This document shows, one piece after another, positions 11,026-43,318 of a DNA stretch of 53,198 nucleotides (its first letter is position 1; every line of letters begins with the position of its first letter). The notes below the pieces were generated by a model that ran no database searches, was not told the DNA's origin, and saw nothing but the letters and a program-made list of their open reading frames with translations. This stretch comes from Thermodesulfobacteriota bacterium (GTDB lineage Bacteria; Desulfobacterota; DSM-4660; Desulfatiglandales; Desulfatiglandaceae), in contig JAUPKI010000317.1 of NCBI GenBank assembly GCA_030837545.1, positions 1 through 53,198 on the forward strand, written 5' to 3'. A program made the position numbers and the translations under genes.

Positions 11026-11052
11026 AAAAGGGCTGGCTGTGTCTGCGGCGAT

Positions 11053-12336: not shown

Positions 12337-12407
12337 CGTCACCCCGGCGAAGGCCGGGGTCCAGAAGATCTTGAACAGACTGGATTCCGGCCTTCGCCGG
12401 AATGACG
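12337..12407. repeat. palindromic repeat core (copy 4)
   Basis: CGTCACCCCGGCGAAGGCCGGGGTCCAGAAGATCTTGAACAGACTGGATTCCGGCCTTCGCCGGAATGACG. Confidence 0.75.
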
Positions 12408-12458
12408 CCCTTTGGTTGTGCATGAGGAGATGAGCCCTTAGGTCAATGACATTGACGC

Positions 12459-14198: not shown

Positions 14199-14199
14199 G

Positions 14200-15486: not shown

Positions 15487-15775
15487 TTCCGAAAGGTGCG
15501 GGATCTCGGGGTCTCCCTGGCTTTTATAATTGACAAAACCGGAACGTACGCCTATAAACTGGTTCGTTTAGTTCCTTATTCGTTAGACCCCTCTCGCGAA
15601 ATTTAGGGATTTAGGGAGCTGAGGATTGAGGATTGACGAAAATTGTTATTTGGGCGGATGAATGGTTGAATGAGACATGCGGACAATGTGAGGGAATCTG
15701 CGGATGGGGTCAGGGGGGCTGTTTTTAATCCCTGAATTCCTGAATTCGCAATTCCTCAATATCTAAGGAGCGATT

Positions 15776-19455: not shown

Positions 19456-19603
19456 GAACGCACCCTGGGGTTTTCAATGACGACGATTTCATTTTCTCTC
19501 CGGAGCGTTTGGTGCTGACTAAACATTGATGCCTTATCTTGACTGTGGGATATATGGATTTATTATTGATAATGATTACTATGTTGAAAGTTAAAAGTTC
19601 TTT

Positions 19604-19745
19604 CGTCATGCCGGACTTGATCCAGCATCCAGAACGACTAAGCCATTGGAATAATAATGGATTCCGGCTCTCTCCGGAATGACGGCCTGGAATTTACACT
19701 TCTGACAATATCAATAGGATATGGAAACTTTGGACTGTGGAGTTA
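19604..19745. repeat. MITE-like palindromic element (copy 5)
   Basis: CGTCATGCCGGACTTGATCCAGCATCCAG...ATGGATTCCGGCTCTCTCCGGAATGACGG; right arm matches 8351-8418 in reverse orientation. Confidence 0.75.
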
Positions 19746-19803: not shown

Positions 19804-21240
19804 ATGCTGCTTCGCCGCCATATTCTTCTTAGCGCCCTCAAACTATTTGATATCGCGATCATGGCCCTCTCTTATCTTCTCGCAGCAGGGACGCTATCGC
19901 GCTACTCGGTCCCACTCTCTATTGAGCGACTCCTTTCCCTCCAGATGTCCATAAAGGAAATCATCTTTTTCTCATCACTGCTGCTGTCATGGCACATTCT
20001 ATTTATCCTCTTCGGATTCTACCGATCGCGGCGTGTTTCCACTCGAAAACAGGAAATCACCGATCTGCTAAAGGCCGACCTGTGTGGAACGTTAACCCTG
20101 TTTATTGCAGCGAGACTATTCAATGTTGTGATGGTTACTCCCCTTTTTCTGGGAGTCTTCTGGGTAACGGCCACCGCCATTGGCATCTTGAACAGACTCT
20201 TGCTCAGATGGGGGCTCGGCTGGATCAGGGTGAAGGGTAGGAATCTGAGATATGTTCTGATTATCGGGACAGATGATCGAGCGATCAATTTGGCCCATCT
20301 GATTGAAACCAAGGCAAAACTTGGCTACTGCCTGACAGGTTTTGTGAACGGAAACGGAGAAGGGATTCGAAAGGTACAGGAAACCGGTTATCCTGTCGTG
20401 ACCGATTTCAAGGGCTTTCCATCTTTTGTCAGAGACCGGGCGGTGGATGAGGTCTGGATCAGCCACCCCAGAGACGTCATTGAAGGCGAGTTGTCGCGAC
20501 TTGTTGTTTTCTGTCGAAAATGCGGCATGATCATCCGCTATTTCTCCGGGCACTTAGAGTCGATGCAGGCCCTTTCAGAAGGCATACCCTTTGAAGACGA
20601 GTCGGTGTTTACATCTTATCCCGGTCCGGTGGATGCCAACTTTTTCATGGGAAAACGGTTGATGGATATCGTGGGTTCGCTGGCATTACTGGTTATTTTG
20701 TCGCCCTTGTTGGCCATCGCCGCTGTTCTCGTCAAGGTTACGTCGCCAGGGCCGGTCTTTTTCGTTCAGGAAAGGATCGGTTTTAACAGGCGCAAATTCC
20801 GTCTGTACAAATTCAGGACCATGTGCCAGGGGGCAGAGCAAAGGCTTTTCGAACTGGAACACCTTAACGAAATCAGCGGCCCCGTTTTTAAAATGGCGAA
20901 TGATCCGAGGCTTACGAGAATCGGCAAATTTTTGCGCAAGTCAAGTATCGATGAATTCCCTCAGCTTTTCAATGTCCTGAAAGGCGACATGAGCCTGGTA
21001 GGGCCGAGACCCCTGCCGGTGCGGGATTATCATGGATTTAATGAAGATTGGTATCGTCGTCGTCTCTGCGTGCTTCCCGGGATGACCTGTCTCTGGCAGG
21101 TCAACGGCAGAAATGCCATTCCATTTGACGAGTGGATGGGACTGGATTTGAAATATATTGATCAGTGGTCGTTGCGGCTTGATTTCCAAATCCTGTTGAA
21201 AACAATTCCAGCGGTCTTGAAAGGGTCAGGAGCAGCATAA
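19804..21240 (+). CDS. polyprenyl-phosphate glycosylphosphotransferase (initiating sugar transferase)
   Basis: N-terminal TM segments, MDIVGSLALLVILSPLLAIAAVLVKVTSPGPVFFVQERIGFNRRKFRLYKFRTM, SIDEFPQLFNVLKGDMSLVGPRP. Confidence 0.95.
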   Translation: MLLRRHILLSALKLFDIAIMALSYLLAAGTLSRYSVPLSIERLLSLQMSIKEIIFFSSLLLSWHILFILFGFYRSRRVSTRKQEITDLLKADLCGTLTLFIAARLFNVVMVTPLFLGVFWVTATAIGILNRLLLRWGLGWIRVKGRNLRYVLIIGTDDRAINLAHLIETKAKLGYCLTGFVNGNGEGIRKVQETGYPVVTDFKGFPSFVRDRAVDEVWISHPRDVIEGELSRLVVFCRKCGMIIRYFSGHLESMQALSEGIPFEDESVFTSYPGPVDANFFMGKRLMDIVGSLALLVILSPLLAIAAVLVKVTSPGPVFFVQERIGFNRRKFRLYKFRTMCQGAEQRLFELEHLNEISGPVFKMANDPRLTRIGKFLRKSSIDEFPQLFNVLKGDMSLVGPRPLPVRDYHGFNEDWYRRRLCVLPGMTCLWQVNGRNAIPFDEWMGLDLKYIDQWSLRLDFQILLKTIPAVLKGSGAA

Positions 21241-21305: not shown

Positions 21306-22793
21306 ATGACCATCGTTGAAATGTTGGAAAAAACCAAAGGGTCTTTCTCCGAAAAAACTGCCATCATTTGTGCACAAAAAACACTCTCCTATGATGACGT
21401 GTACATCCAGTCCAACGCCCTGGCAAATTTTCTGGTGGCAACCGGCCTCAAAAAAGGGGGGTATGTGGGTGTGATGCTGAAAAAATCGCCTGAGGTTGTT
21501 GTCTCCTTTCTGGGTGTTGCTGCTGCCGGCGGTATTGTCTTCCCGGTGGACTACACGCAGACACTTGCCCACATCCAATACATCCTGAATCTTACCAAAC
21601 CGTCGGCCCTGGTAGTGGAAGCAGAATTCCAGCCTTTGCTTTCAAAACTCGACCTCACTTGTCCGGAGGAACGTATCCTTGTTATCGGGAAAATGGGGGG
21701 GGGGCGATACAGCCCATGGAGAGGCATCCTCTCAGGGCGTCCTCGCGGCAGGCCTGATGTGAAGGTCCAGGAGGATGATGTCGTATATTTGAACTTCACA
21801 TCAGGGACCACCGGCGTTCCTAAGGCGGCTGTCGCCACCCACGAAAATATTTACTGGAATACCCTCGCCTCAATCGAAGCCCTGAATCTCACCCCAGATG
21901 ACATCCATCTCTGCCTCTTTCCTGTTTTCGGCCATCCTCACGAGCTGTTTGCCCGTCCACTCTATTTGGGAGGAACCATTGTCCTGATAGATAGTATCGC
22001 CCCCAAAACGATCGCTAAGGCTATTTCAGATAATCGGGTGACCTGTATGATGGGGGTTGCATCCATATACCAAACCTTGATCCGGTTCCATGAGTCCAAT
22101 CCTTTCGATTCCAATTCTCTGAGGGTCCCCGAAAGCGGCGGCATGCACATTTATCCCTCCTTGGCCCATCAATTCAGAGAAAGGTTCGGGATCTCGATGA
22201 TACCGGTTTGGGGAAGTACCGAAACCATGGGAATCGCCTTCGCCAATCCGGTTGACGATACAAAAAAGGAAGGATCGATCGGAAGACCCTGCCCGTACTA
22301 CCAGGCAAAAATCGTGGGGGAAAATGGAGAGGACCTGGCAGAAAACGATATTGGCGAGATGGCCGTCAAAGGACCTGCCGTCTCTGCCGGATATCTTGAA
22401 AACTTGGAAGAAACCCGGAAGTGCATGAAGGATGGGTGGTTCTATACAGATGACCTGGCAAGAAAGGACGCTGATGGCTATTTCTATTTTGTCGCCAGGA
22501 AAAGCGGGATGATGAAAGTGGCAGGAATGAAGGTATTCCCTGTGGAGATTGAGGATGTCTTGAGTTCGCATCCAAAGATTGCCGAAGCAGCGGTTACCAG
22601 GGTTTATGATCGGTTACACGGGGAAATGCCCAAGGCCGTTATCGTCCTGAAAGCGGGAGAAGAAATGGACAAGATGGAGATACGCAGGTATTGTGAGGAG
22701 CGTATGGCGAAATACAAGGTACCCCGCGTCATAGAGTTTCGAGCAGAATTGCCGAAGAGTCCAGGAGGGAAGGTCCTATATCGGTTATTGTGA
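21306..22793 (+). CDS. AMP-dependent acyl-CoA/aryl-CoA ligase (adenylate-forming)
   Basis: YLNFTSGTTGVPKAAVATH P-loop, WGSTETMG, WFYTDDLARKDADGYFYFVAR, PKSPGGKVLYR catalytic Lys motif. Confidence 0.9.
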   Translation: MTIVEMLEKTKGSFSEKTAIICAQKTLSYDDVYIQSNALANFLVATGLKKGGYVGVMLKKSPEVVVSFLGVAAAGGIVFPVDYTQTLAHIQYILNLTKPSALVVEAEFQPLLSKLDLTCPEERILVIGKMGGGRYSPWRGILSGRPRGRPDVKVQEDDVVYLNFTSGTTGVPKAAVATHENIYWNTLASIEALNLTPDDIHLCLFPVFGHPHELFARPLYLGGTIVLIDSIAPKTIAKAISDNRVTCMMGVASIYQTLIRFHESNPFDSNSLRVPESGGMHIYPSLAHQFRERFGISMIPVWGSTETMGIAFANPVDDTKKEGSIGRPCPYYQAKIVGENGEDLAENDIGEMAVKGPAVSAGYLENLEETRKCMKDGWFYTDDLARKDADGYFYFVARKSGMMKVAGMKVFPVEIEDVLSSHPKIAEAAVTRVYDRLHGEMPKAVIVLKAGEEMDKMEIRRYCEERMAKYKVPRVIEFRAELPKSPGGKVLYRLL

Positions 22794-22817
22794 CAAGAGA
22801 GACAGGAAACCCGTGCC

Positions 22818-23945
22818 ATGGAATCAAAAGCCGTTGTACTGTATGCCGATAGGTTGCCAATGAAGGGGATTGTCCAACCGGGTCCCCATGAACTGTACCA
22901 GAACCCACGCATAGCCGTCGAAACACGTCCATTGGGCGATCTGGACCCGGATGATATCCGTGTAGAAATGATCTACGCCGGAATTTGCGGAACGGATGTC
23001 CATTTAGTGGAAACCAATCCTAACACCGGGTATATTCGCTGTTCGGCGCCGGCGGATATCCCGGAAACCGGACGGGTCTTGGGACATGAAGGCGTTGGCA
23101 AGGTTATTGCGACTGGTAGCCATGTCCACAACGTGAAATCCGGCGCACTGGTGGCATTTGAATCCATCATCGTCTGTCACCACTGCAACGAATGCCGCAG
23201 CGGAAGATTCAATCAGTGCCGAAATGCCCGCTTGCTGGGGCTTGAGCGGGACGGCCTCTTTGGCACAATGGTTGATGTACCCGCCTTACTGGCCCACGAT
23301 ATTGCGCAATATGTCTTGACCGACCAGGATCTTAAAGGGATGGCCTGTCTGGAACCTGCAGGCGTGGCATTCGTCGCATGCCAGAACGGCCAGGTATCCG
23401 AAGGAGATGTGGTGGTTGTTTTCGGGGCAGGCCCTATAGGGCTGTTCTCTGCCATGATGGCCAGGGATATCTTTGGGGCCTCACAAGTCCATACAGTGGA
23501 GCCGATACCATTCAGGAGGAAATTGGCCGAAAAATGGTGTAATCAGACATATGATGTGGAGGATTTCTTAAATAACTGCCCGAAATCGGTAGATGTGATT
23601 ATTGAGGCATCGGGCCGTCTGGACAATGTCACAAGGATATTCCGTCGCGTGAATGCCAATGGTCGAATTGTCCTCCTGGCAAGAAGCGGGGGCTCTCTGG
23701 AAATTCGTGACGTGGATCACATGATTAGCAATGCAGTGACGCTGACAGGCTCACGGGGGCACCTCGGCGGCGCGTTTGAGACAATCCTGAGTCTTTGCAG
23801 AAACGGGAGATTATCCTTGCATGAATTTGTGACGGAGGTTGTCAGGGGGCCGGAAGGGCTTGCGGATATCCTTGGCTCGCCGGAGCGGATCCTACAAGAA
23901 AATTGCAAGGTTCTGGCTTCGTTTCAGGATTTGCTCAATCATTAA
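22818..23945 (+). CDS. zinc-type medium-chain alcohol/polyol dehydrogenase
   Basis: YAGICGTDVHLVE, GHEGVGKVIATG, CHHCNECRSGRFNQC structural Zn site, VVVFGAGPIGLFSAMMAR. Confidence 0.88.
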   Translation: MESKAVVLYADRLPMKGIVQPGPHELYQNPRIAVETRPLGDLDPDDIRVEMIYAGICGTDVHLVETNPNTGYIRCSAPADIPETGRVLGHEGVGKVIATGSHVHNVKSGALVAFESIIVCHHCNECRSGRFNQCRNARLLGLERDGLFGTMVDVPALLAHDIAQYVLTDQDLKGMACLEPAGVAFVACQNGQVSEGDVVVVFGAGPIGLFSAMMARDIFGASQVHTVEPIPFRRKLAEKWCNQTYDVEDFLNNCPKSVDVIIEASGRLDNVTRIFRRVNANGRIVLLARSGGSLEIRDVDHMISNAVTLTGSRGHLGGAFETILSLCRNGRLSLHEFVTEVVRGPEGLADILGSPERILQENCKVLASFQDLLNH

Positions 23946-23973
23946 AACAACACGCGGAGACTGTTGAATTATT

Positions 23974-25053
23974 ATGGATGATAATAAGGAAAGATTGAAA
24001 GAACTCAGGTCCCAGATGACCCACGTCAATGAGAAGATAATGAATCATCTCAATGAGTTCTTCCAGATATCAAACAGAATCGGTCACGTGAAAGATGAAA
24101 TGGGCCTGCCCCACTTCGACCCGGTTAGAGAATCTGAGATGCTTAGAGAAATCAGGGAGAAAAACAAGGGGCCCATGCCTTATGATCTCATGAAAAGAAT
24201 CTTCAAAGACCTGTTCAGGGCCTCGGTTGAAGAAATGGGTGTGGGAAAACGAAGAAGGCTGGAAGTGGACCGGCTGCCTGACCGCGAAGGCCAGGTCATT
24301 GTCGTCAATGGCGTCGAAATAGGGGGTCAACGGCCGGTCCTGATGGCTGGCCCGTGCGCGGTCGAAAGCTATGAGCAGCTTCGCACAACCGCCGAGAGAC
24401 TTCATCAACTCGGGGTTCGCATCTTGAGGGGAGGGGCATTCAAGCCGCGGACCTCTCCCTACAGCTTTCAAGGACTTGAGGAGGAGGGACTGAAGATACT
24501 GAGACGTGTCGCTGATGAACTCCATATGGCGGTCATTTCAGAGGTCATCGATACAAGAAGTGTTCCGCTGGTTGCTGAATATGCCGACATTCTGCAGGTC
24601 GGGACCCGAAACATGTTTAATTATGCCCTTCTAAAGGAGCTTGGAAAGATCCATAAGCCGGTGATGATAAAAAGGGGTATGATGGCTACCATCGATGAAC
24701 TCATTCTCGCGGCAGAGTATGTTTATATAGGGGGAAACCATGAGATCATGTTATGCGAAAGGGGGATCAGGACCTATGAAACCCAGACCAGAAACACCCT
24801 CGATATCTCGTCTATCCCTATCTTAGCCAAGGAAACAGCCCTTCCCGTTATCGTTGACATCAGCCATTCCCTGGGCAGGAAGGACATTGTTAAACCCATG
24901 GCCCGGGCGGCTCTGTCGGCCGGGGCGCACGGAATCATGTTTGAATCCCACCATGATCCGAAGATCGCTCTTTCAGATTCAGAACAACAGTTGGACCTCA
25001 AGGAGGCTGAAGAGCTCGTTCGTTATCTGGAAGGTTTTTTTGAATTATCGTGA
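23974..25053 (+). CDS. DAHP synthase (AroF/KDSA-like) with N-terminal AroQ-type chorismate mutase-like domain
   Basis: PVLMAGPCAVESYEQL, LRGGAFKPRTSPYSFQGL, LQVGTRNMFNYALLKELG, PVMIKRGMMATIDELILAAEYV, DISHSLGRKDIV. Confidence 0.93.
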   Translation: MDDNKERLKELRSQMTHVNEKIMNHLNEFFQISNRIGHVKDEMGLPHFDPVRESEMLREIREKNKGPMPYDLMKRIFKDLFRASVEEMGVGKRRRLEVDRLPDREGQVIVVNGVEIGGQRPVLMAGPCAVESYEQLRTTAERLHQLGVRILRGGAFKPRTSPYSFQGLEEEGLKILRRVADELHMAVISEVIDTRSVPLVAEYADILQVGTRNMFNYALLKELGKIHKPVMIKRGMMATIDELILAAEYVYIGGNHEIMLCERGIRTYETQTRNTLDISSIPILAKETALPVIVDISHSLGRKDIVKPMARAALSAGAHGIMFESHHDPKIALSDSEQQLDLKEAEELVRYLEGFFELS

Positions 25054-25098
25054 TCCTGCAAACCGTAGGCCCTATTTGAGAGGTTCGTTGCGAGGCTG

Positions 25099-26220
25099 GT
25101 GATGAGAAGCCGTATCAACCATAGCGGAAATGTCATATATCATGTGGAAGTTAAAACGAGCACCTCCACTTATCCCATCACTATCGGTGAGCCGCTTTTG
25201 GATTCATTCAAAGGGTTTTTTAAGGGGTATCCCAGCGTCTTTCTGTTAACAAATGATACGGTCTTCGACCTCTATAACGAGAATCTTATCCGCCAGATGG
25301 AAAATGACCTCCCTTTCCTTTCTCATATGACCGTCCCAGACGGGGAGAGATACAAGAGCATCGAGACATTGAATGGCATATACGAGGAACTTTCATCGAA
25401 AGGACTGGGTCGTGATGGGTGTGTGATCGCCTTTGGCGGCGGCGTCATCGGCGATTTGGCAGGCTTTGCGGCTGCCACGTTTATGAGAGGGGTTGATTAC
25501 GCGCAGATCCCGACTACGCTCCTGGCCATGGTGGACAGCAGCATCGGCGGAAAAACCGGAATCAACCTTATCAAAGGGAAGAATATGGTTGGGTCTTTCC
25601 ATCATCCCAAAGCCGTATTCTGTGATCTCAGTTTTCTAAATACACTGCCTGAAAGACAATTCAACGCGGGCGTAATGGAGGTCATCAAATATGGGCTAAT
25701 ACTGGATGAGGCCTTTTACAGGTTTATCCTGGCCAACAGGGACCGCGTAGCCGCCCGAGACAGGGATGTCGTTGCTTATCTGGTCTATCGATGCTGCGAA
25801 TTGAAGGCCCAGATCGTCGGTCAGGATGAGAAGGATAAGGGCATCCGGGCTATCCTGAATTTTGGCCATACCGTAGGACATGCACTGGAGAGTTATACCG
25901 GCTATCGCGTGTATCTGCACGGAGAGGCAGTGGCATTGGGCAGCCTTGTCATCATTCGCCATCTTGTTGAAAAAGGGGTATTGAGCATTCAATCCTTAGA
26001 GGAATTTAAAGGGATTCTGGGTTTTTTCGAACTGCCAACCTCCCTTCCTTCGGATTTTGAAGTTGACGCGATATTGAGGCATTTTTCTTATGACAAGAAA
26101 AAGGAGCATGGCAAATCCCGATGGGTAACACTGCGAGACGTAGGATCTGCTGAATGGGGGCAGGCTATGGACATTGAAGAGGTGAACAGCATTCTGCGGG
26201 GGCTTCAAAGAAATGGATAA
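25099..26220 (+). CDS. aroB: 3-dehydroquinate synthase
   Basis: FGGGVIGDLAGFAAATFMRGVDYAQIPTTLLAMVDSSIGGKTGINLIKGKNMVG, LNFGHTVGHALE, LHGEAVALG, DKKKEHGKSRWVTL. Confidence 0.95.
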   Translation: MMRSRINHSGNVIYHVEVKTSTSTYPITIGEPLLDSFKGFFKGYPSVFLLTNDTVFDLYNENLIRQMENDLPFLSHMTVPDGERYKSIETLNGIYEELSSKGLGRDGCVIAFGGGVIGDLAGFAAATFMRGVDYAQIPTTLLAMVDSSIGGKTGINLIKGKNMVGSFHHPKAVFCDLSFLNTLPERQFNAGVMEVIKYGLILDEAFYRFILANRDRVAARDRDVVAYLVYRCCELKAQIVGQDEKDKGIRAILNFGHTVGHALESYTGYRVYLHGEAVALGSLVIIRHLVEKGVLSIQSLEEFKGILGFFELPTSLPSDFEVDAILRHFSYDKKKEHGKSRWVTLRDVGSAEWGQAMDIEEVNSILRGLQRNG

Positions 26221-26650
26221 CATATCTATCCTGGTGATCAATGGTCCTAACCTGAATATGCTGGGTAGAAGGGAACCGGATCAATATGGGGATATGGGAT
26301 TAGATGAAATCTGCCGGAAAATCAAATCCCATGCAGAAAAGAGGAATATTCGGGTTGAATTTTTCCAGAGCAACATGGAGGGCGAGCTGATTAACCGCAT
26401 CCAGGAGGCCCCGACGCGTTTTTCCGGGATCATCATTAATGCCGGTGCATATTCACATACCAGCATTGCGATACGAGACGCTGTTTCAAGCATTTCTGTC
26501 CCCGTTGTCGAGGTTCATATCTCCAATATCTATAATCGTGAAGGATTCCGTCATCATTCCTATCTCGCCCCTGTATGTGCAGGATCCATCGTCGGCTTTG
26601 GATACCTAAGCTATATTCTGGCCCTGGAGTATTTTAGCTTGTCTCGTTAG
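26213..26650 (+). CDS. aroQ: type II 3-dehydroquinate dehydratase
   Basis: VINGPNLNMLGRREPDQYG, FFQSNMEGELI, INAGAYSHTSIAIRDAV, REGFRHHSY; 8-bp overlap with aroB. Confidence 0.95.
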   Translation: MDNISILVINGPNLNMLGRREPDQYGDMGLDEICRKIKSHAEKRNIRVEFFQSNMEGELINRIQEAPTRFSGIIINAGAYSHTSIAIRDAVSSISVPVVEVHISNIYNREGFRHHSYLAPVCAGSIVGFGYLSYILALEYFSLSR

Positions 26651-26723
26651 ACCGATGGACATTCAAGACCTGATGACAGCATCGGTTAACGATTCAACCC
26701 CTGAGAAGCCATAAAGAAGAACC

Positions 26724-28850
26724 ATGAAGTTGAAAAGCAAGGAAGAGGTCTTCAGGAGTGTCTGCCGGATCTGCCATGGGGGATGTGGGGCGCTCCTGTT
26801 CGTAAGAGATGGCAGACTCATGAGGGTAAAGCCTGATCCAGATTCTCCTTTCAGTCTGGGCAGAATGTGCATCAAAGGTCTTGCCACGCCTGAAATCATG
26901 TATCACCCTTCCAGACTCCTTACCCCCTTGAAGCGTGTGGGGGCGAGAGGATCCAACCGTTGGGAAGAAATAACCTGGGAAAGGGCCTTGAGCGAGATTG
27001 CCGGCAAGCTCGACAGGATCAGAGGCGAATCGGGCCCCGAATCGATCGCCCTTGGCCAGGGCACGGGAAGGCATCATTTTATGCATGTCATCCGTTTTGC
27101 CAACTCCCTTGGAACGCCCAACTGGTATGAACCGGGCCTTGCCAATTGTCTGCTGCCGAGGATAACCGTCAGCCAACTGACATATGGGGGATTCGTTGTG
27201 GCAGACTACTACGGAAAAGTAGCCCCCAAAACCATCCTGTTCTGGGGTCACAACCCGATTGTAAGCGGGCCTGACGGAGAACTCTCCTTCCCAGTCAGAC
27301 GGGCCTTAAAATGGGGCAGCTTTGGAATTGCCATCGATCCGAGGAGGTCGGAAACCGCCAGACAATGCCGAATATGGCTGCCGATAAGGCCCGGGACGGA
27401 TGCCGCCCTTGCCCTTGCGATGATTCATGTCATTACCCACGAAGGCATCTATGACAAGGACTTTGTAGAAAAATGGACGGTTGGCTTCAACCGGTTGAAA
27501 GCCCATGTTGCCCTTTACACCCCCACATGGGCCGAAGGCATCACTTGGGTCCCGGCAGAGATGATTGTGGCAGCCGCAAGGAGATATGCTCTTGAAAAGC
27601 CTTCTGTTTTGGAGTGGGGAGTTGCCATTGAACACAACACCAACTCGCTTCAAACCGTGAGGGCCATCTCCCTGCTCAGAGGCCTGACCGGGAATATCGA
27701 TATTCCTGGCGGGGACATACTGGGCATGAATATTGTCAGGCCCTACCCGGTCATGAGGGACCAACTGCCCAAAGGGATGGCAGAAAAAAGGATAGGGGCC
27801 GGTCAGTTCAAGCTATTGGGAGGCTTCCGGTCGCTTATCCCTTCGGCGCATGTTCCCGGCCTCTTCAAGGCCATGCGGACAGGGGATCCCTATCGAATAA
27901 GGGCGCTTTTGGTTTTCGGGGGGAATCCGATGGTCACCGTCGCCAATTCCAGGGAGGTCTATGAATCGCTGCAAAAACTGGACCTGCTCGTTGTAACGGA
28001 TCTATTCATGACCCCAACCGCTGGTCTGGCCGACTATGTGCTCCCTGCCGCCTTCTGGCCGGAGATCAACCAGATCATCGAACTCCCTTTTGTTGCTGAA
28101 AATGCCGTTTTCGCCCAACAGAAGGTGGTTCAGACCGGCCTGTGCAGACAGGACGAGGAGATTATGATCGACCTTGCCAGAAGGCTGGATCTGCCAGGGT
28201 CAGATCAATCGCTTCGGGATATCATTGATTTCCGGCTCGAGCCGCTGGGTTTGACTTTTGAAGATTTAAGAAATAAAATATATAGTTATCCGCGCCATGA
28301 GTACAGAAAATTTGAGAAGAACGGGTTCAGGACCCCTTCGAAAAAAGTTGAACTCTATTCCAGATTCCTGGAAAGACAGGGATACGATCCCCTTCCCGCC
28401 TATCAGGAACCCCCGGAGAGCCCGGTCAGCCAGCCGGATTTATACAGGGAGTTTCCTTATGTGTTGACGACGGGAAGCAGAAGGATTGAGTTTTTTCACA
28501 GTGAACACAGACAGATACAGTCTCTCAGGAAGAGGAGGCCCGATCCGACCGCAGAAATGCATCCGGCAACGGCTTCCCTGCATGGCGTTGCAGATGGGGA
28601 TTGGGTAACTGTCAGCTCTCCTCGAGGGCAGATACAAATGAGGGCTGCGGTGACCGAGGATATTCGAACAGGGGTCATCAACATTGATCACGGGTGGTGG
28701 TTTCCTGAAAGGGGCGGCCCTGATTTCGGGGTCTGGGCGTCCAATGCCAATCTGCTGACATCCAATGCGCCCCCTTATGACCCGGCCTTCGGGAGTTATC
28801 AACTAAGGGGGCTTTTGTGCAACGTAGAGAAAACAAGTGGGGATCTCTGA
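26724..28850 (+). CDS. molybdopterin oxidoreductase (DMSO reductase family), single catalytic subunit
   Basis: CRICHGGCGALLFVRDGRLMRVKPDPDSPFSLGRMCIKG [4Fe-4S] motif; FWGHNPIVSGP; FGGNPMVTVANSREVYESLQKLDLLVVTDLFMTPTAGLADYVLP; no Tat signal seen. Confidence 0.92.
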   Translation: MKLKSKEEVFRSVCRICHGGCGALLFVRDGRLMRVKPDPDSPFSLGRMCIKGLATPEIMYHPSRLLTPLKRVGARGSNRWEEITWERALSEIAGKLDRIRGESGPESIALGQGTGRHHFMHVIRFANSLGTPNWYEPGLANCLLPRITVSQLTYGGFVVADYYGKVAPKTILFWGHNPIVSGPDGELSFPVRRALKWGSFGIAIDPRRSETARQCRIWLPIRPGTDAALALAMIHVITHEGIYDKDFVEKWTVGFNRLKAHVALYTPTWAEGITWVPAEMIVAAARRYALEKPSVLEWGVAIEHNTNSLQTVRAISLLRGLTGNIDIPGGDILGMNIVRPYPVMRDQLPKGMAEKRIGAGQFKLLGGFRSLIPSAHVPGLFKAMRTGDPYRIRALLVFGGNPMVTVANSREVYESLQKLDLLVVTDLFMTPTAGLADYVLPAAFWPEINQIIELPFVAENAVFAQQKVVQTGLCRQDEEIMIDLARRLDLPGSDQSLRDIIDFRLEPLGLTFEDLRNKIYSYPRHEYRKFEKNGFRTPSKKVELYSRFLERQGYDPLPAYQEPPESPVSQPDLYREFPYVLTTGSRRIEFFHSEHRQIQSLRKRRPDPTAEMHPATASLHGVADGDWVTVSSPRGQIQMRAAVTEDIRTGVINIDHGWWFPERGGPDFGVWASNANLLTSNAPPYDPAFGSYQLRGLLCNVEKTSGDL

Positions 28851-28865
28851 TCATTGGGGACGGCC

Positions 28866-29615
28866 ATGAGACACTATAGGTACTTTTCCTGGTTTCTGTT
28901 TTTAGCCCTGATACTGTCCTGTTCGGCAAAAACGACGTCCGAAGAGATTACCGTCAATAAAGGGGATGTCTCTCCACCGGCCCCCTTTGTCTTGGGTGCC
29001 GGCGACAAGATCAGCCTCAGCGTATGGCGCCATGACGACCTCGCAAAGACCGTACAGATAGACCCCTCCGGAGATATTTCACTCCCCCTCATAGGAGACA
29101 TAAAGGCATCTGGCTTGACCACCGCCCAGTTGAGAGAAGAGGTCCGCTTGCGGCTCTCAAAATACATCGTCAATCCCAAGGTCGATGTCAATGTATCTAC
29201 ATTAACCAGCCAGAATGTCTACGTCCTGGGCGAGGTCAATTCTCCCGGATCTTTTACCCTCAACAGGGATATGCTGGTCTGGGATGCCATATCATTGGCG
29301 CAAGGGTTTACTCAGGACGCAAACCAGGATGCGGTGTTGCTCGTAAGAAGTGAGAATGGCTTAGGCAAAATAAGCGCCTTGAACCTGGATATCCAAGACA
29401 TGTTTAAAAAGGGCGAGGTGCTTCCGGATTACCGCTTGAAAAACCGCGATCTCATTTATGTTCCACCAAGCACGATTGTTGATGTTGAGAGGTTTATGAA
29501 GAGGCTAAACAACATTCTCAGCCCTATCCTGAATATTGAAAGAGGCATCATCATGAGCCAGGATGTACGCAATGTGCTGAAGGGCAAAGACATAACAGGT
29601 GGAGTCGTTTATTAA
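28866..29615 (+). CDS. polysaccharide export outer membrane lipoprotein (Wza/SLBB family)
   Basis: lipobox LILSC; FVLGAGDKISLSVWRHDDLAKTVQIDPSGDISLPLIGDIKASGLTTAQL; SLBB-like VYVLGEVNSPGSF. Confidence 0.92.
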   Translation: MRHYRYFSWFLFLALILSCSAKTTSEEITVNKGDVSPPAPFVLGAGDKISLSVWRHDDLAKTVQIDPSGDISLPLIGDIKASGLTTAQLREEVRLRLSKYIVNPKVDVNVSTLTSQNVYVLGEVNSPGSFTLNRDMLVWDAISLAQGFTQDANQDAVLLVRSENGLGKISALNLDIQDMFKKGEVLPDYRLKNRDLIYVPPSTIVDVERFMKRLNNILSPILNIERGIIMSQDVRNVLKGKDITGGVVY

Positions 29616-31629: not shown

Positions 31630-33792
31630 ATGGAAAACAGGAATCCTGGCAACTGGCTTTTTGCTATAGCGGGGATCAATCTGCCCCTGGTTCTTTGGGG
31701 GATTTTTTTGGTGGCCATCGCTGTCACCTGTTTAACATTTCTGTTTTCACCTATTTATAAAGCGACAACGATTCTGACCCTGGATTCGGACGCTGAAAAG
31801 GTGCTGAGAGGGATCGACCTCGCCTATCCCACAACACAATCAACCGACTATATCAGATTTGAATATTTTGCCATCCATAGCATTACATTGATGCGTTCAG
31901 TAGATCTTGCCCGAGAGGTTATCAATAGGTGCAACATCACGGATAGCTCTGGCGAAGAGGTGCTTCCTGAAAACCTGATAGAACCCGGCCTCTTCAAATT
32001 GCTGTTCAAGAATAGCGGACAGGGGATTGATGTAGACTGGATAGCAGATACTCAGCAGTTTGCCATAACGGGATATTCAGAAGAACCGCATAAGGCTGTT
32101 ATTGTTTCAGAAGCCTATACAGAGGCTTTTCTCCAAAAGAATGCCGGTCAATTTAGGGATATGCTAAAGGTTTTGATGACAAATTTAGAAAGCCAACTTG
32201 AAGAAAGCAAAACAAAGATCAAGAGCATTCAAGGCGATATTCAGAAAATACGGCTTCAGCACAATATGCCGGACTCGTCAAATGAATCTGAGAAGCTGAC
32301 CGGACAAATTCTGGAAATTGAGACGAGCCTGTCTTCCAGTATCCTTGAGGAGAAGACATACAGTAGAAAGATCGAACACCTTTCTGCTGAAGCCACAAAT
32401 CATGAGAAGCTCTTGAAATACCGTCACATTATGAGAACAAATCCCCTTGTGACTGAGTTGAATTCAAAAATTGTAGATCTGAGTGGAGAATTGATAGCGT
32501 TATCTCTTGAATATACACCTACACATCCCGACTATCTTCGGGCTAAGGAAAAGCTGCATAATGCCAAAGAAACCCTGAGAAAAGAGGCAGAAAAATCTTT
32601 CTATGAGGAAGCAAAAGAAACTTCTCCTGTGAGAGACGAAATATTATCAACCATTCTAAATCTAACCATAAATCATCTAATTTTCAAAAGCACTGTTGAA
32701 CATCTTCAGGTAAGACTGGATACATACAAAAAGCGGCTTAATGAACTAATAAAAGCACAGACGGCGATTGATTACTTAACTAATGAACTTGGCACTTATA
32801 GTGACTTGAAAAACAGCAGCCAAAAAAGCATTATTAAAATTCGTAGCACTTGCAACAATTCGCTTCCTTTCTTCAGGGTGGTCTCAAGAGCTTGGATCAA
32901 TACCGACAATTTGAAGGATTACAAGTTGTTCCCAAAAAGGAAACAAATTCTTCTAATTTCATGTGTGCTTTCATTTTTTCTGTTTTCGTTCCTTGCAATC
33001 GCCTGGGAAATGCGATCCAACCTGCTCTATTACAAATGGCAACTTTCCGAATTTGGTTACAATTTTACCATTGTCGAAGTGCCGACGATTGGCAAACCTT
33101 CAAAAATAATCGGTGACTTTGAATCCGTCCTCGCGATCTATCTGCGTGGTGTCTCGGGGTCTCTCTTTGACGCAAAACTAATCAGGGTAGTCAACGCGAT
33201 CGAAGGGGAAGGGAAGGCCACGGTGGGCAGGACGCTTGCGTGGTGTTTCAACAGGTCAGGCAGATCAGTCCTCCTGGTAGATGGTGACTACATACATAGA
33301 AAATGTTCAAAGGCATTGGGCATGGAGGATAGGCCGGGACTTACGGACTTCCTCCAAGGGGATAAGGACATAGATAGTGTAATAGTTCAATCTCCGGTTT
33401 CTCATATGGACTGTATTCCGGCTGGAACATCTGGCACCATTGAATGGGATTCAAACATCAGAAAAGTCCTGCCTGAGATACTCTCAAACCTTTCCGGACG
33501 GTATGACAAAATTGTATTCTTGGACACCCCCTTGAACGACACCCTATTCCCTCTGATTGATGGAATGGATCAAGACATCGTTTTGGTGCTAAAATCAGGC
33601 AAACATTCTATCTCCGAGTTTGGTGAGATTCTCAGTATAAGCCAATTGTCCAGAGGCGACAGAGCAGGAATCAGCGCAATAGTTCTTAATTGCCTTCCGT
33701 TTACAGCCAATGTCTTCTCAGTAAGAGGTCTTTGGCGGTTGACACAACACCTTATCAGGCAGCCCTTTCAGTCTTTTCGAAGGCCAAAATGA
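31630..33792 (+). CDS. Wzc-like polysaccharide co-polymerase with degenerate BY-kinase domain
   Basis: two TM segments flanking coiled coil; VVNAIEGEGKATVGRTLAW, VLLVDGDYIHRK, KIVFLDTPL. Confidence 0.85.
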   Translation: MENRNPGNWLFAIAGINLPLVLWGIFLVAIAVTCLTFLFSPIYKATTILTLDSDAEKVLRGIDLAYPTTQSTDYIRFEYFAIHSITLMRSVDLAREVINRCNITDSSGEEVLPENLIEPGLFKLLFKNSGQGIDVDWIADTQQFAITGYSEEPHKAVIVSEAYTEAFLQKNAGQFRDMLKVLMTNLESQLEESKTKIKSIQGDIQKIRLQHNMPDSSNESEKLTGQILEIETSLSSSILEEKTYSRKIEHLSAEATNHEKLLKYRHIMRTNPLVTELNSKIVDLSGELIALSLEYTPTHPDYLRAKEKLHNAKETLRKEAEKSFYEEAKETSPVRDEILSTILNLTINHLIFKSTVEHLQVRLDTYKKRLNELIKAQTAIDYLTNELGTYSDLKNSSQKSIIKIRSTCNNSLPFFRVVSRAWINTDNLKDYKLFPKRKQILLISCVLSFFLFSFLAIAWEMRSNLLYYKWQLSEFGYNFTIVEVPTIGKPSKIIGDFESVLAIYLRGVSGSLFDAKLIRVVNAIEGEGKATVGRTLAWCFNRSGRSVLLVDGDYIHRKCSKALGMEDRPGLTDFLQGDKDIDSVIVQSPVSHMDCIPAGTSGTIEWDSNIRKVLPEILSNLSGRYDKIVFLDTPLNDTLFPLIDGMDQDIVLVLKSGKHSISEFGEILSISQLSRGDRAGISAIVLNCLPFTANVFSVRGLWRLTQHLIRQPFQSFRRPK

Positions 33793-35360
33793 CCGTTTTC
33801 AGCAGCACATCGGATATGTCACCATTTCTGCCCCCGGCATGGGGCTTGGTTCTCATCTCCATTGTTTTCAGTCCCCTTGCAGTGTTTTTCCCGCTTCATC
33901 TGGCCATCTTCCTCATATTGGCAGCCACTATTTTGGCCTTTTGTGTTAGACCGATGCTCCTTGTCTATCTCATGACCGCATCATACGCATTGGAGAGCTG
34001 CACGATAGAACTCCATTTTGAAAATGCCAGTTACTATTACGGGTATGTTTGGGTACATTTCTTCGAAATTAACAATTTGATTACCCTGGCAGTCATTATT
34101 CTGTGGTACTTGATCGGTTACCATCGGAATCAAAATGGGGCGTTATGTTCAGTGCCGCATCTATACAAATGGATCTTTTTCCTTTTCACCACCTTTATCG
34201 CTTGGTCAGCCTTTATCGCCTTATTGTCTTCGAAAGCCGACGTGGCATTTTTTGGATGGTGGAAACTGAACTGCAATTTTGTGATGATGGCGCTCTTGAT
34301 TATACATCTGGATAGATACGATAAATTTATTAAAGTAATGTCTCTTTACTGTGGTGTTGCTTTCATTTTCTCCTTGATTTCAATCTATGCAACTCACCAG
34401 GCCTTTGAAACCACCAAAATGATATATTTGTCTCCTGATCTCTCCGCATCAATCAAAATTGCCCTGTTCAACCGGCCCGGCGGGGTCATGGAAAAGCTGG
34501 TGGGACTTGTGAATGGATTCGGATTGTGCGGCAAGCATCAACTGGGGATGTTAGTGTTGGGGGGGATACTATTCTCTGTGTTCCTGGCTAAACACTACAA
34601 ATCGTGGATTATTAGGGCGACATTGGTATTATTGATCTGCCTGTTCGAAATGATTCTCTATAATAACGTCATGAAATTATCTCTGACTGCATCCCTTCTT
34701 CTTTTAATCCTTGCATGGCTCGCGGTTCTCCCTTTTCGGAAATATTTCATACACATTCTAGCTCTGTTCATCTGTTTGAACATTGTGGGGTGGTGCGGCT
34801 CCAAATTGATCCAAGCGCCCCATTTAGCTGCCACAGACGAAATCATCAGCAAACTTGTTACAAAAGTACCGGCTTCAAGTCAATTTCAAGTGGGATCCAT
34901 TCCACATCGAGTGTATATCTGGGAGCAGACGTTCGACAGAATTATAAAAAACCCTTTTACCGGAATCGGCCCAGAGGCTTTAAGAAAAGATTTGTTGTTC
35001 AACCTTCCGCACGGGCATAATTTTTTTCTGACACTGACAGCCGAATATGGCGCCCCTGCCGGCATGTTGATGTTGTTTGCCTTTTTTTTGGTTGGTATAT
35101 ACAGTTATCACAATATTTTTTCGAAAGACGAGAGCAATAGCGGGAATAATAGAATCTTATGGTTTCTCAAGTTGACCTTTTTCGGGGCTTCTGGTAGCGC
35201 CTTATTTGAGTCCCTTTTTGACTGCGATATCTGGCTGCCGCATCTATGGTTCATGCTTGCACTTTTGCTTGGATCGATGAATTTGGAAAATCGCGGCAAA
35301 CAGCGGCTAAACGCGGCAGTGCCGATTCATACAGGATATCTTTCTATGGACCTGGCCTGA
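33789..35360 (+). CDS. O-antigen ligase/polymerase-like membrane protein (Wzy-like)
   Basis: multiple TM segments, long periplasmic-type loop, NPFTGIGPEALRKDLLFNLPHGHNFFLTLTAEYGAPAGMLML; ATGA overlap with upstream gene. Confidence 0.85.
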   Translation: MTVFSSTSDMSPFLPPAWGLVLISIVFSPLAVFFPLHLAIFLILAATILAFCVRPMLLVYLMTASYALESCTIELHFENASYYYGYVWVHFFEINNLITLAVIILWYLIGYHRNQNGALCSVPHLYKWIFFLFTTFIAWSAFIALLSSKADVAFFGWWKLNCNFVMMALLIIHLDRYDKFIKVMSLYCGVAFIFSLISIYATHQAFETTKMIYLSPDLSASIKIALFNRPGGVMEKLVGLVNGFGLCGKHQLGMLVLGGILFSVFLAKHYKSWIIRATLVLLICLFEMILYNNVMKLSLTASLLLLILAWLAVLPFRKYFIHILALFICLNIVGWCGSKLIQAPHLAATDEIISKLVTKVPASSQFQVGSIPHRVYIWEQTFDRIIKNPFTGIGPEALRKDLLFNLPHGHNFFLTLTAEYGAPAGMLMLFAFFLVGIYSYHNIFSKDESNSGNNRILWFLKLTFFGASGSALFESLFDCDIWLPHLWFMLALLLGSMNLENRGKQRLNAAVPIHTGYLSMDLA

Positions 35361-35537: not shown

Positions 35538-36908
35538 GTGAAAGTGCTTTTGATTCAGGCCTATCATGGAAGATATGAACCTGATGGAATTATTTTCCCG
35601 ATTGGATTGTGCTATATCGCCACTGCGTTGAAGGGACATGATGTTCAGATTATCGATTTAAATGCATATGACGATCCGTATGATGAACTAATGTCAAGGA
35701 TACTGACTTTCGAGCCTGATATTGCAGGTATTTCCCTAAGAAATATTGATACGACCCAAAAGCGGGATCCGTTCTTCTATTATCAGACACTGGAACCGAC
35801 AGTTCACATCATAAAGGAGAATCAAGTTTCGGCAAGGATTGTGATTGGGGGAAGCGGTTTTTCCATGTTTGCCCGGGAGATTATGACCAGGATCCCACAA
35901 ATAGATTTTGGTGTGTATCTTGAGGGTGAAGAGTCGACCCCTGAACTATTACAGAATCTAAGCAGACCTGAGACAGTAAAGGGGATCTTTGTCAGAAAGG
36001 CCGACGGGGTGGTGTTCACCGGCCATAGACCTCTTTTAGACGTGATAAGCCTTCCTGCACCCGAGAGGCATTTTCTCAATGTAAAGAGTTATGACCACCC
36101 GGTTTATACCAATATCGGTATCCAAACAAAACGCGGATGCCCCCTGATGTGTGCTTACTGTAGCTACCCTTTTCTTAATGGGCGGCAAATAAGGGCTAGG
36201 TCGGCCCGCCAGGTAGCCGACGAGATAGAATGCTTGAAGCGTGAATACAACATCAGGCGGTTTATGTTCATTGACAGTGTATTCAATGTTCCCAGTCAAC
36301 ATGCTGAGGATATCTGCAAGGAAATGATAAATAGACGTCTGGATGTGGAGTGGAGTGCGTATTTTAATATCCGAGGATTCTCAGAAGAACTCCTCAATCT
36401 GGCGATAGGAGCAGGCTGTAAGAACTTTTCCTTTTCCCCTGATGCTGTTACTGACAGATCGTTGAAGGCCTTGGGCAAAGGCATCACCGAACAGGATATT
36501 TCAACTGTAATAAGGATGCTCGTGAAAACAAAGGGCGTAAGAGTTGAGTTCCATGTCTTCTGCACGCCGCCCGGGCAAACATTTTTGGGGATACTGAAGA
36601 CTCTCTTTTTTTTCTTTAAAGTGAACGCACTTTTTCTGGGCAGAGCTGTCGTACACCTTGGTTGGATAAGGATAGAACCGGAGACTGGCATTTTTGAGAT
36701 CGCCAAATCCGAGGGACTCATATCAGAAAAAACCGATCTGCTTCCACATAATGAACAAGGTCTGAAGTCCCTCTTTTATAGCTGCCCAGGTACCAGACAC
36801 TATGGGGATTTTGTTTTTAATGTAATCTTGACACTGCAGGATATGCTTTTGCCCAGAGCAAAGACCTTTTTGAGAAGAAATCGTGGCAAAAAATGGATCC
36901 AAAAGTGA
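35538..36908 (+). CDS. B12-binding-domain radical SAM protein
   Basis: IFPIGLCYIATALKGHDVQIIDLN; IVIGGSGFSMF; QTKRGCPLMCAYCSYP (CxxxCxxC). Confidence 0.9.
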   Translation: MKVLLIQAYHGRYEPDGIIFPIGLCYIATALKGHDVQIIDLNAYDDPYDELMSRILTFEPDIAGISLRNIDTTQKRDPFFYYQTLEPTVHIIKENQVSARIVIGGSGFSMFAREIMTRIPQIDFGVYLEGEESTPELLQNLSRPETVKGIFVRKADGVVFTGHRPLLDVISLPAPERHFLNVKSYDHPVYTNIGIQTKRGCPLMCAYCSYPFLNGRQIRARSARQVADEIECLKREYNIRRFMFIDSVFNVPSQHAEDICKEMINRRLDVEWSAYFNIRGFSEELLNLAIGAGCKNFSFSPDAVTDRSLKALGKGITEQDISTVIRMLVKTKGVRVEFHVFCTPPGQTFLGILKTLFFFFKVNALFLGRAVVHLGWIRIEPETGIFEIAKSEGLISEKTDLLPHNEQGLKSLFYSCPGTRHYGDFVFNVILTLQDMLLPRAKTFLRRNRGKKWIQK

Positions 36909-36984: not shown

Positions 36985-37938
36985 ATGAAGGTGCAGGACA
37001 ATATTCTCAAGGACGCGGGCAGGCTGGTTTTCTGGCATCCAATACGATGGCTGGCAAACCTATTGCCGTGCAGGACAGTTGGATTTATTGGAAAAATGAC
37101 AGGCCACCTCGATTATTATCTGTTCAAGGGAAGAGCAGAGAAAATTGGGATGAATTTGCGCCATGCCTTCGGAAATACTATGACAAACCGAAGAAGCCGT
37201 GACATTGTGAAGAAAATTCTTGCGAACCACTACACGCTGATTCTTGAATTTTTTAAGTACCCACAAATAGTTGAAAGGAATATTGCGTCAATAGTTAGTG
37301 TTGAAGGCTTGGAGAACCTCGACAATGCCCTGGCCCAGGGCAGAGGCGCCATCATTGGGCACTGCCATTTCGGTGCGAAACTCCTGCTGATCATCGTCTT
37401 GGGACTGAAAAAGTATTCGATCAATCAGATCGCCTATCACATGCCCAAGGAGGAATTGACTTACATTCGGGAAAAAGTTTCCTTAAAGCAAAGGCTGAAG
37501 ATAGAAAGGAGTTTTAAGGTCAACTATATCTATCTCAGCAAGGGATTAAGAAGGGCCTTCTCCTGCCTTGATGACAATGAAGTCCTAATGGTGGCCATAG
37601 ACGGCAAGGGGATTCTGACTGAAACATTCAGCGGTTCAGTCTGCGTCAATTTCCTTGGACAGAATGCCTATTTTGCCAGTGGGGTCGCCACTCTTTCGAG
37701 AAGGAAAAGGACGCCTATATTGCCGGCTGCGGTTTTCAGAAAAGATGATGGAACCTATAGGATGGTCATTTCCCCTCCAATAGAGATAGATTACGAAAAC
37801 GAGGGCAGGGCATTCGCAAGCGATGTTATTGAGAAGCTTATCGCTGTTTTTGAAGGGGATATCAGGCGTCACCCCGACCAGTGGGAATACTGGGAGGAGT
37901 TTGGCCCAGGAGAAATGGATGATGGGCAAGGGAGATAG
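36985..37938 (+). CDS. LpxL/HtrB-family lipid acyltransferase-like protein
   Basis: GRGAIIGHCHFGAKLLLIIVLGLKK, IDGKGILTETFSGSVCVNFLGQNAYFASGVATLSRRKRTPILPAAVF. Confidence 0.78.
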   Translation: MKVQDNILKDAGRLVFWHPIRWLANLLPCRTVGFIGKMTGHLDYYLFKGRAEKIGMNLRHAFGNTMTNRRSRDIVKKILANHYTLILEFFKYPQIVERNIASIVSVEGLENLDNALAQGRGAIIGHCHFGAKLLLIIVLGLKKYSINQIAYHMPKEELTYIREKVSLKQRLKIERSFKVNYIYLSKGLRRAFSCLDDNEVLMVAIDGKGILTETFSGSVCVNFLGQNAYFASGVATLSRRKRTPILPAAVFRKDDGTYRMVISPPIEIDYENEGRAFASDVIEKLIAVFEGDIRRHPDQWEYWEEFGPGEMDDGQGR

Positions 37939-39376
37939 AAAGGTCATTATTATTGGCGCCGGGCTCACTGGTCTGAGAATTGGTCAGATTCTCGCATCTG
38001 CGGGCATGCAGATTGAGTTGATCGAAACTCAACCGACCGTGGGCGGGATGTTGCAGACAGTCGAAAGATCATACATGGGCGATTGCTACATGTTTGATCT
38101 GGGGCCGCATCTTTTTTTTGAGGAATATGCGTCTGTCTATGAGTCACTGTTGGGAAACGGGAGCGACGACCAACTGACTGTTGTGAAAGGGCACTTCGTT
38201 ATCAAGGTAGGGGATGAGACCCTTCTTTATCCTCTAAAGATGATGAACATGTTAGCCCGGCTCCCCTTGTCTCTTACGCAACGAATTATCTGGGACCTGG
38301 CCAGGTCAAGACTCACGCGCAAGAAAGACGGCGGCATGTCCTCGGTGAGGGAGTGGATGACCCAGAGGTTCGGCGACACGCTTTTTGATAACTTCTTTGC
38401 CCCCTATATTGAGAAATGTACAGGGCTGTCCCCAGAAAGGGTATCTCACAAATGGGCAACAGAAAGGACAACCGTAACAGGCGAAAGTCTTGCCCAGACA
38501 TTGATGAAGATAATGACTGAAGCCTTCAAAGGAAGGAAAAGTCATAATTTGGCGTCCTCTGAACAGATGGCAGCCTATTACCCCAATCACGGTGCAGGCC
38601 GGATTCCTTTGGCGATGGCGGCAGATATCGAAAGGCATGGGGGTAAAATCAGCCTTAATACGAGGCTTTCAAACCTGTGTCTTGAGAACTCCATGGTAAA
38701 GAGTCTCATTTTAACAGAGAGCGGGAACAGGCGGAAGATAATTCATGGTGATATTTTTGTTTCAACAATATCGTTACCCAGTCTAATTCGTCTCTTTTCC
38801 GCTGGGGTCCCAGCTCCGATCTCTGCCGCCTCAAAACGATTGGCATTCAGACAACTGCTTCTTGTCAATATTATTGTCGATCAGGCTAACATATTGGATC
38901 ATTTGGAGCTTTTTTATCCGGATAAGAGATTTCCCTTTAAACGCATATATGAACCTAAAAGAATGAGTCCTAAGATGGCGCCCGAAATGCGCAGCTCGCT
39001 TGTCCTTGAAATTTGCTGTTCAGACAGGGAGGCTGAGGATTTTCAGCTTCAGAAGCGTCTTATCGACAGATCTATTGCAATGCTTGAGAATGAGGGGATT
39101 CTCAAGAGGGAAGATGTCCTCGACTGCTTCACGATCAGTCTCCCTAATGCCTATCCCATATACGGATTAGGGTTTGAGCAGGTTATTGCTGCTATAGAGC
39201 AATTCCTCGCAACCGTCGCGAATCTCATAACATGTGGTCGTCAAGGCCTTTTTGAGTACCATGCCATGACAAACGAAAGCATGGAGATAGCAGAAAACGT
39301 TGCAGACCTGATCTTGTCCGGCAAAAGCAAGGCCGATGTAAATGCGCAAGGTAAGTGGAGCAAATATTTTTACTGA
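37919..39376 (+). CDS. FAD/NAD(P)-binding oxidoreductase (UGM/protoporphyrinogen-oxidase-like)
   Basis: KVIIIGAGLTGLRIGQILASAGMQIELIETQPTVGGMLQTV...FDLGPHLF; starts overlapping upstream gene. Confidence 0.83.
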   Translation: MMGKGDRKVIIIGAGLTGLRIGQILASAGMQIELIETQPTVGGMLQTVERSYMGDCYMFDLGPHLFFEEYASVYESLLGNGSDDQLTVVKGHFVIKVGDETLLYPLKMMNMLARLPLSLTQRIIWDLARSRLTRKKDGGMSSVREWMTQRFGDTLFDNFFAPYIEKCTGLSPERVSHKWATERTTVTGESLAQTLMKIMTEAFKGRKSHNLASSEQMAAYYPNHGAGRIPLAMAADIERHGGKISLNTRLSNLCLENSMVKSLILTESGNRRKIIHGDIFVSTISLPSLIRLFSAGVPAPISAASKRLAFRQLLLVNIIVDQANILDHLELFYPDKRFPFKRIYEPKRMSPKMAPEMRSSLVLEICCSDREAEDFQLQKRLIDRSIAMLENEGILKREDVLDCFTISLPNAYPIYGLGFEQVIAAIEQFLATVANLITCGRQGLFEYHAMTNESMEIAENVADLILSGKSKADVNAQGKWSKYFY

Positions 39377-43290: not shown

Positions 43291-43318
43291 ATCGCTGCAA
43301 TCAGGGGCTACTAAATCG

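Follow-up and report, generated by a model that had tools for sequence, protein, structure and literature searches.

An exopolysaccharide locus of a Desulfatiglandaceae bacterium combines a conserved ligase–dehydrogenase–molybdoenzyme module with the only intact aroB and aroQ genes found in the genome

Introduction

The scytonemin cluster of Nostoc punctiforme is a product cluster that carries its own early-shikimate genes, encoding AroG, a DAHP synthase (DAHPS), and AroB (PMC7997468). In the DAHPS of Bacillus subtilis, Arg27 and Gln86 are two of seven active-site residues of charged or polar type in the chorismate mutase domain, and in the Geobacillus enzyme inhibition by prephenate acts through this domain (PMC5526877). 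In hopanoid biosynthesis, HpnI and HpnJ are a glycosyltransferase and a radical SAM protein that make the bacteriohopanetetrol cyclitol ether (PMC12583986). The locus described here can be compared with each of these systems. It lies on a stretch of 53,198 nucleotides (hereafter the window; contig JAUPKI010000317.1 of assembly GCA_030837545.1, positions 1 to 53,198 of the forward strand) from a Thermodesulfobacteriota bacterium of the family Desulfatiglandaceae, and comprises six genes embedded in an exopolysaccharide (EPS) locus. They encode an AMP-binding CoA ligase, a Zn-type MDR dehydrogenase, a DAHPS, the 3-dehydroquinate synthase AroB, the type II 3-dehydroquinate dehydratase AroQ and a single-subunit molybdopterin oxidoreductase (Mo enzyme). 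Beyond the scytonemin precedent, literature searches returned nothing relevant, either on this combination of genes or on exopolysaccharides of the quinic/shikimic or aromatic-ester kind.

Results

The six genes are co-directional, as a first-pass annotation made from the sequence alone had reported, and lie between the gene of an initiating polyprenyl-phosphate sugar transferase (PGT) and a Wza-like gene (Table 1). From the ligase gene through to the Wza-like gene the gaps are, in order, 24, 28, 45, −8, 73 and 3 bp, and the six genes are one tight operon; the 8 bp shared by aroB and aroQ read ATGGATAA. The annotation was also right that the later shikimate genes are missing here: AroE, AroA, AroC and AroK do not occur among the annotated open reading frames of the window, and AroC, AroE and AroA are encoded on another contig of the assembly, C448. 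It had overlooked the chorismate-mutase-type domain at the N terminus of the DAHPS.

A scan of a genome collection with the window Mo enzyme and a survey covering 395 genomes from the phylum between them provided 19 loci for comparison with the window (genomes are designated by G numbers, G000 being that of the window). In nine loci (window, G448, G314, G451, G452, G456, G453, G457 and G252), the ligase, MDR and Mo enzyme genes are contiguous or split only by DAHPS and, in the window, also by AroB and AroQ. The MDR–Mo enzyme pair occurs in two further loci, both from Gammaproteobacteria (G449, where it ends at a contig edge, and G458). In six of the nine (window, G448, G314, G453, G457 and G252), the PGT gene immediately precedes the ligase gene, and the order PGT–ligase–MDR–(DAHPS)–Mo enzyme is found in several families of the phylum and also in a Kiritimatiellia genome, there lacking the PGT. 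G314 contains a near-complete copy of the cluster, and G185 most of it in rearranged order. Ligase relatives at the equivalent place in other loci are 38–62% identical to that of the window, and MDR relatives 58–66% identical in nine full-length proteins and 53% in a tenth that is clipped by a contig end. Mo-enzyme relatives at 58–79% identity come, according to the record titles in one collection scan, from Deltaproteobacteria/Desulfobacterales/Desulfarculales, Nitrospira/Nitrospirae, Kiritimatiellia, Thiomargarita and Methylococcaceae. In the phylum survey, eight genomes have the Mo enzyme and eight have close relatives (at least 57% identical) of rSAM4, a radical SAM protein of the same cluster, with seven genomes in common; the corresponding P value of about 2 × 10⁻¹³ assumes independent genomes and is overstated by their relatedness, its direction being clear.

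Because the ligase–MDR–(DAHPS)–Mo enzyme order recurs in unrelated genomes, this linkage is a conserved unit across phyla, mostly beside EPS genes, rather than a product of chance. The EPS linkage proposed for all six genes holds for the ligase, the MDR and the Mo enzyme, and also for DAHPS in four of the loci, but not for AroB and AroQ. Chance proximity of ordinary housekeeping genes to an EPS locus, which the first-pass annotation had named as the finding that would undo its reading, is rejected for the four conserved genes by their order and is retained in modified form for AroB and AroQ: these two are indeed the sole intact copies, whereas a second DAHPS is present and the EPS linkage is conserved.

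The DAHPS gene stands between the MDR and Mo enzyme genes in the window, G452, G456 and G453. The three other proteins are 65–69% identical to that of the window, while all further DAHPSs compared reach at most 56%, and each of the four genomes possesses DAHPS-family genes additional to the cluster copy, including the second DAHPS that had been sought in the window's genome. The catalytic motifs GPC, KPRTSPY, KRG and CERGIRT are intact. In the chorismate mutase site, all four cluster enzymes have Arg27 replaced by Phe and Gln86 by Met (B. subtilis numbering; Phe29 and Met88 in the window), and all four retain the remaining five of the seven charged or polar positions. Since these two ligand residues are missing from the regulatory domain, we infer that the cluster DAHPS is an active enzyme without prephenate feedback.

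In a phylogenetic tree, 17 module-type Mo enzymes form one clade (support 100/100) set apart from relatives of 42–56% identity, with phyla intermixed within it. The window enzyme has an Fe4S4 motif of the form CRxCHGGC (CRICHGGC) and an aligned Cys metal ligand, and its nearest solved relative is acetylene hydratase (2e7z; 365 bits against 246 for the next). The neighbours of more distant paralogues include ferredoxin-like B subunits and regulators, with no clear substrate; no ferredoxin-like subunit adjoins the window enzyme. The nearest solved relatives of the ligase are anthranilate-, feruloyl-, malonyl- and benzoate-CoA ligases. Its score against TIGR02262 is 245 bits, below the cut-off of 375, and its top-scoring models are of the fatty-acid type, also below cut-off. 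For the MDR, the nearest named family is scyllo-inosose 3-dehydrogenase (NF041097; 215 bits, below the cut-off of 450).

Single-family searches of the window's genome identify the operon AroB as the only match to DHQS_C (3-dehydroquinate synthase C-terminal domain) and the operon AroQ as the only dehydroquinase, neither a second AroQ nor an AroD match having turned up. AroB aligns over its full length to solved 3-dehydroquinate synthases and is 36% identical to the housekeeping AroB of the genus; in a tree it sits on a long branch without resolved placement, its nearest relative being 41% identical. AroQ matches TIGR01088 over its full length and aligns to 1gqo. A sugar cyclase of the 2-deoxy-scyllo-inosose synthase type (TIGR04425) was considered for AroB and rejected, the score being far under that for true AroB. 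Two different AroB genes occur in the module-bearing Methylococcaceae genome G458 (L156 and L168), neither of them known to adjoin the module.

The housekeeping second copies of AroB and dehydroquinase, which were specifically looked for, both carry deletions. They belong to an operon on C448 with the order aroC-DAHPS-aroB-pheA-tyrA-aroE-aroA, in which the genes flanking the deletions are intact. Its aroB ends after the N-terminal domain: the 3′ half is gone (~1 kb is missing compared with G001, of the same genus) and the remainder is fused to the start of pheA, with that start and its upstream sequence preserved. In the tyrA–aroE interval, which in another genome of the genus (G002) holds an intact gene for a type I dehydroquinase, aroD (PF01487, 165 bits), residues 1–37 are joined in frame to residues 187–221 and the core is lost. 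The two steps broken in the housekeeping operon are exactly the AroB and dehydroquinase steps encoded at the EPS locus, and because of this match the simplest reading is that housekeeping aroB and aroD have been displaced by aroB and aroQ of the EPS operon. Being the genome's sole intact copies, AroB and AroQ must also serve primary metabolism; it appears that the EPS operon supplies aromatic biosynthesis as a whole, and probably also makes a product of its own.

The insertion site can be followed by comparison with G001, which has the same upstream genes, from HMG-lyase-like to HU/IHF-like, and then AroQ directly, with no EPS genes. Homology between the two stops at position 19424 of the window, resumes at 26212 and ends with AroQ at 26653, the two edges of the break falling on neighbouring positions (19803/19802) of the stretch from G001. 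The stop of the HU gene in G001 uses the same ATGGATAA overlap as the AroB stop in the window. AroQ may have stood behind the HU/IHF-like gene already, as in G001, with the EPS genes inserted on both sides of it; alternatively, the cluster came with AroQ in the common ancestor of G000 and G001, and G001 later lost all but AroQ. The first order of events, which we rate as falling slightly short of an even chance, is favoured by the adjacency of the breaks in G001, by a divergence of AroQ between the two genomes equal to that of the neighbouring genes, and by the absence of an EPS-type Mo enzyme from every other family member searched. Arrival with the cluster fits better the lower GC content of AroQ relative to its upstream neighbours, which it shares with the cluster genes, and its presence in the family in G000 and G001 only, the other 44 family genomes searched lacking it; two events around AroQ are needed in either version. 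Palindromic intergenic repeats of the CCGGAATCCAG type lie near both rearranged sites, in the aroB–pheA spacer of G001 (L125:6015-6419) and at the start of the EPS insertion (window 19600–19720), and could have promoted recombination. Further upstream (window 10048–16927) are genes for two HMG-CoA-lyase-like proteins, a carboxyltransferase, an enoyl-CoA hydratase-like protein and an acyl-CoA dehydrogenase, which G001 has in the same order at 78–97% identity.

Homologues of PGT, Wza, Wzc, Wzx and Wzy all occur in one locus, which identifies it as a Wzx/Wzy-type EPS cluster. The cluster extends to about 50.0 kb of the window, with a GC content of 0.46–0.50 against 0.55 in the upstream flank. The first LpxL-like acyltransferase is a candidate for attaching an activated acid, and the DUF362 protein is a possible redox partner. 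Other genomes, too, have the rSAM4 gene paired with the glycosyltransferase gene that directly follows it, alongside the Mo enzyme.

Table 1. Genes of the operon and of the surrounding EPS locus, with window coordinates.
Feature	Position	Strand	Supporting matches
Initiating polyprenyl-phosphate sugar transferase (PGT)	19804..21240	+	TIGR03025, 378 vs cut-off 296 bits
AMP-binding CoA ligase (AMP-forming acyl/aryl type), module core	21306..22793	+	PF00501 + PF13193
Zn-type MDR dehydrogenase, module core	22818..23945	+	PF08240/PF00107
DAHPS with N-terminal chorismate-mutase-type domain	23974..25053	+	PRK12595 equivalog, 472 vs 279 bits
3-dehydroquinate synthase AroB	25099..26220	+	TIGR01357, 359 vs cut-off 305 bits; PF01761 + PF24621
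Type II 3-dehydroquinate dehydratase AroQ	26213..26650	+	TIGR01088, 208 vs cut-off 170 bits
Single-subunit molybdopterin oxidoreductase, module core	26724..28850	+	PF00384, PF04879, PF01568
Wza-like polysaccharide export lipoprotein	28854..29615	+	PF02563 (Poly_export), PF10531 (SLBB), PF22461
Wzc-like chain-length/tyrosine-kinase-type protein	31630..33792	+	PF13614 (AAA_31); aligned to Wzc-position genes of G457, G185
Wzy/O-antigen-ligase-like polymerase	33690..35360	+	PF04932 (Wzy_C)
B12-binding radical SAM protein rSAM1	35538..36908	+	PF02310 + PF04055; 38–47% in G448, G314, G185, G414 clusters
LpxL-like acyltransferase 1	36985..37938	+	PF03279; counterparts in G314, G185, G414, G457 clusters
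FAD-dependent amine-oxidase-like protein	37949..39376	+	PF01593; PRK07208 subfamilies below cut-off
Wzx-like flippase	40652..42082	+	PF01943 (Polysacc_synt)
LpxL-like acyltransferase 2	42295..43290	+	PF03279
B12-binding radical SAM protein rSAM3	43283..44812	+	PF02310 + PF04055; 34–53% in several clusters
GT9 glycosyltransferase	44936..46135	+	PF01075; 43–50%, adjoining DUF362 in G314, G185
DUF362 iron-sulfur protein	46196..47518	+	PF04015 + Fer4; 57–61% in G314, G185, G414, G457
HpnJ-like B12 radical SAM protein rSAM4	47518..48990	+	TIGR03471, 407 vs cut-off 578 bits
GT2 glycosyltransferase	48995..50017	+	PF00535; adjoins rSAM4 in G314, G185, G414, G457, G454 too

Discussion

On balance, and with modest confidence, we favour the view that the locus is a horizontally spread Wzx/Wzy EPS (or glycolipid) cluster with an acid-activation and redox module, that DAHPS is deregulated in the subset of loci that have it, and that aroB and aroQ now encode the only 3-dehydroquinate synthase and dehydratase of the cell. 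The deregulated DAHPS would drive carbon into the shikimate pathway free of the normal feedback, and the products of the operon AroB and AroQ would rejoin the ordinary aroE, aroA and aroC enzymes encoded elsewhere. The ligase would then convert a ring acid derived from shikimate or chorismate to its CoA thioester, which the MDR and the Mo enzyme may oxidise or rearrange. The DUF362 protein may pass electrons, the ferredoxin-like subunit that adjoins several of the paralogous Mo enzymes being missing here, and the LpxL-like acyltransferases could move the acyl group onto a lipid-linked glycan. Our guess is that, in loci with DAHPS, the acid is most likely a shikimate-pathway ring acid; a fatty or cyclitol-type acid is the alternative substrate.

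Several observations weigh against this view. EPS genes were not recognised near the module in three loci (G451, G452 and G456), and, across the 19 loci compared, AroB and AroQ are present in no other module locus and DAHPS is missing from most. The annotated genes of the cluster include none for an enzyme that would divert dehydroshikimate, shikimate or chorismate, and the acid handled by the module need not be aromatic, since the family of the ligase also includes fatty-acid and malonate ligases. The deletions in aroB and aroD lie on one contig of ~10 kb in a draft of 456 contigs (97% complete, 3.35% contamination), so that either misassembly or the absence of a contig could account for them. 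Finally, aroD of G003 also has an in-frame internal deletion, an N-terminal piece being joined to about residue 128 onward (L127:2198-2515, in the tyrA–aroE interval), yet no AroQ was found in G003; as aroD was lost in part there without AroQ, its loss alone is no proof of replacement.

The distribution of the genes bears first on the possibility that the ligase–MDR–Mo enzyme module handles a non-shikimate acid, such as a fatty acid or a cyclitol derivative, DAHPS, AroB and AroQ being passengers that support only aromatic amino-acid synthesis. The rarity of the three genes in module loci agrees with this, as do the best model matches of the ligase (fatty-acid type) and of the MDR (scyllo-inosose dehydrogenase), both below cut-off. 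Such passengers, however, would not readily explain why DAHPS occupies one and the same position in four loci despite other DAHPSs in those genomes, nor the two specific regulatory-site losses that the cluster enzymes share, and we regard this account as a serious but clearly less probable one. The same distribution bears on the original proposal of the first-pass annotation, a self-contained DAHPS–AroB–AroQ route dedicated to 3-dehydroshikimate as the precursor of a special acid of the EPS. Three consecutive steps are encoded in one operon within an EPS locus, and the GC content of AroQ resembles that of the cluster genes; but AroB and AroQ are the cell's only intact copies, they are not conserved in any sister locus, and the cluster contains no annotated enzyme that uses dehydroshikimate. 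We therefore consider this route improbable and have rejected it as the leading account.

The fragmented assembly and the location of both deletions on a single contig would also be expected if the deletions were draft errors and the EPS copies merely extra. The deletions, however, are clean, keeping the pheA start and its upstream sequence and an in-frame aroD remnant; their flanking genes are intact; and, though separate, they strike precisely those two steps for which the EPS operon has genes. An artefact of this kind thus seems to us quite unlikely. Returning to the preferred view of a horizontally spread cluster, its most far-reaching form would have a cross-phylum EPS cluster attach to its glycan a shikimate- or chorismate-derived ring acid, supplied through a feedback-blind DAHPS and processed by a new acetylene-hydratase-like Mo enzyme, with the whole of aromatic biosynthesis in this lineage dependent on two operon genes after loss of the housekeeping aroB and aroD. 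That all these parts hold together is, in our estimate, rather doubtful.

The locus may be an instance in which an accessory operon for a surface polysaccharide has taken over core metabolism, the broken original genes remaining recognisable. In addition, it brings to light a widely spread and apparently undescribed EPS gene set (ligase, MDR, Mo enzyme, HpnJ-like radical SAM protein, DUF362 and LpxL). The R27F and Q86M replacements are a clear sequence mark of a DAHPS possibly freed from feedback, which, if true, would be of interest for engineering aromatic compounds.

Among described systems, the Mo enzyme is closest to acetylene hydratase, a member of the DMSO reductase superfamily and its nearest solved relative, with which it shares the aligned Cys metal ligand. 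The Asp of the CxxCDxxC motif is essential in acetylene hydratase; this residue is His in the window enzyme (CRICHGGC). rSAM4 and its adjoining glycosyltransferase are reminiscent of the HpnI/HpnJ pair, HpnJ being the closest family to rSAM4, but the radical SAM protein scores below the HpnJ cut-off (407 against 578) and the GT2 protein has no HpnI match at E 1e-15. The cluster DAHPS has, over its full length, the domain order of the Bacillus/Listeria/Geobacillus-type enzymes (best matches in the Protein Data Bank, 5j6f and 3nvt), and differs from them in that all four members have Phe and Met in place of Arg27 and Gln86. To our knowledge, the scytonemin cluster is without a set of CoA ligase, MDR and Mo enzyme. 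It resembles the present locus in bringing its own early-shikimate genes, in that case to a photoprotective pigment made from tryptophan and p-hydroxyphenylpyruvate rather than to an EPS cluster, and in the present genome the extra AroB and AroQ have become the sole intact copies.

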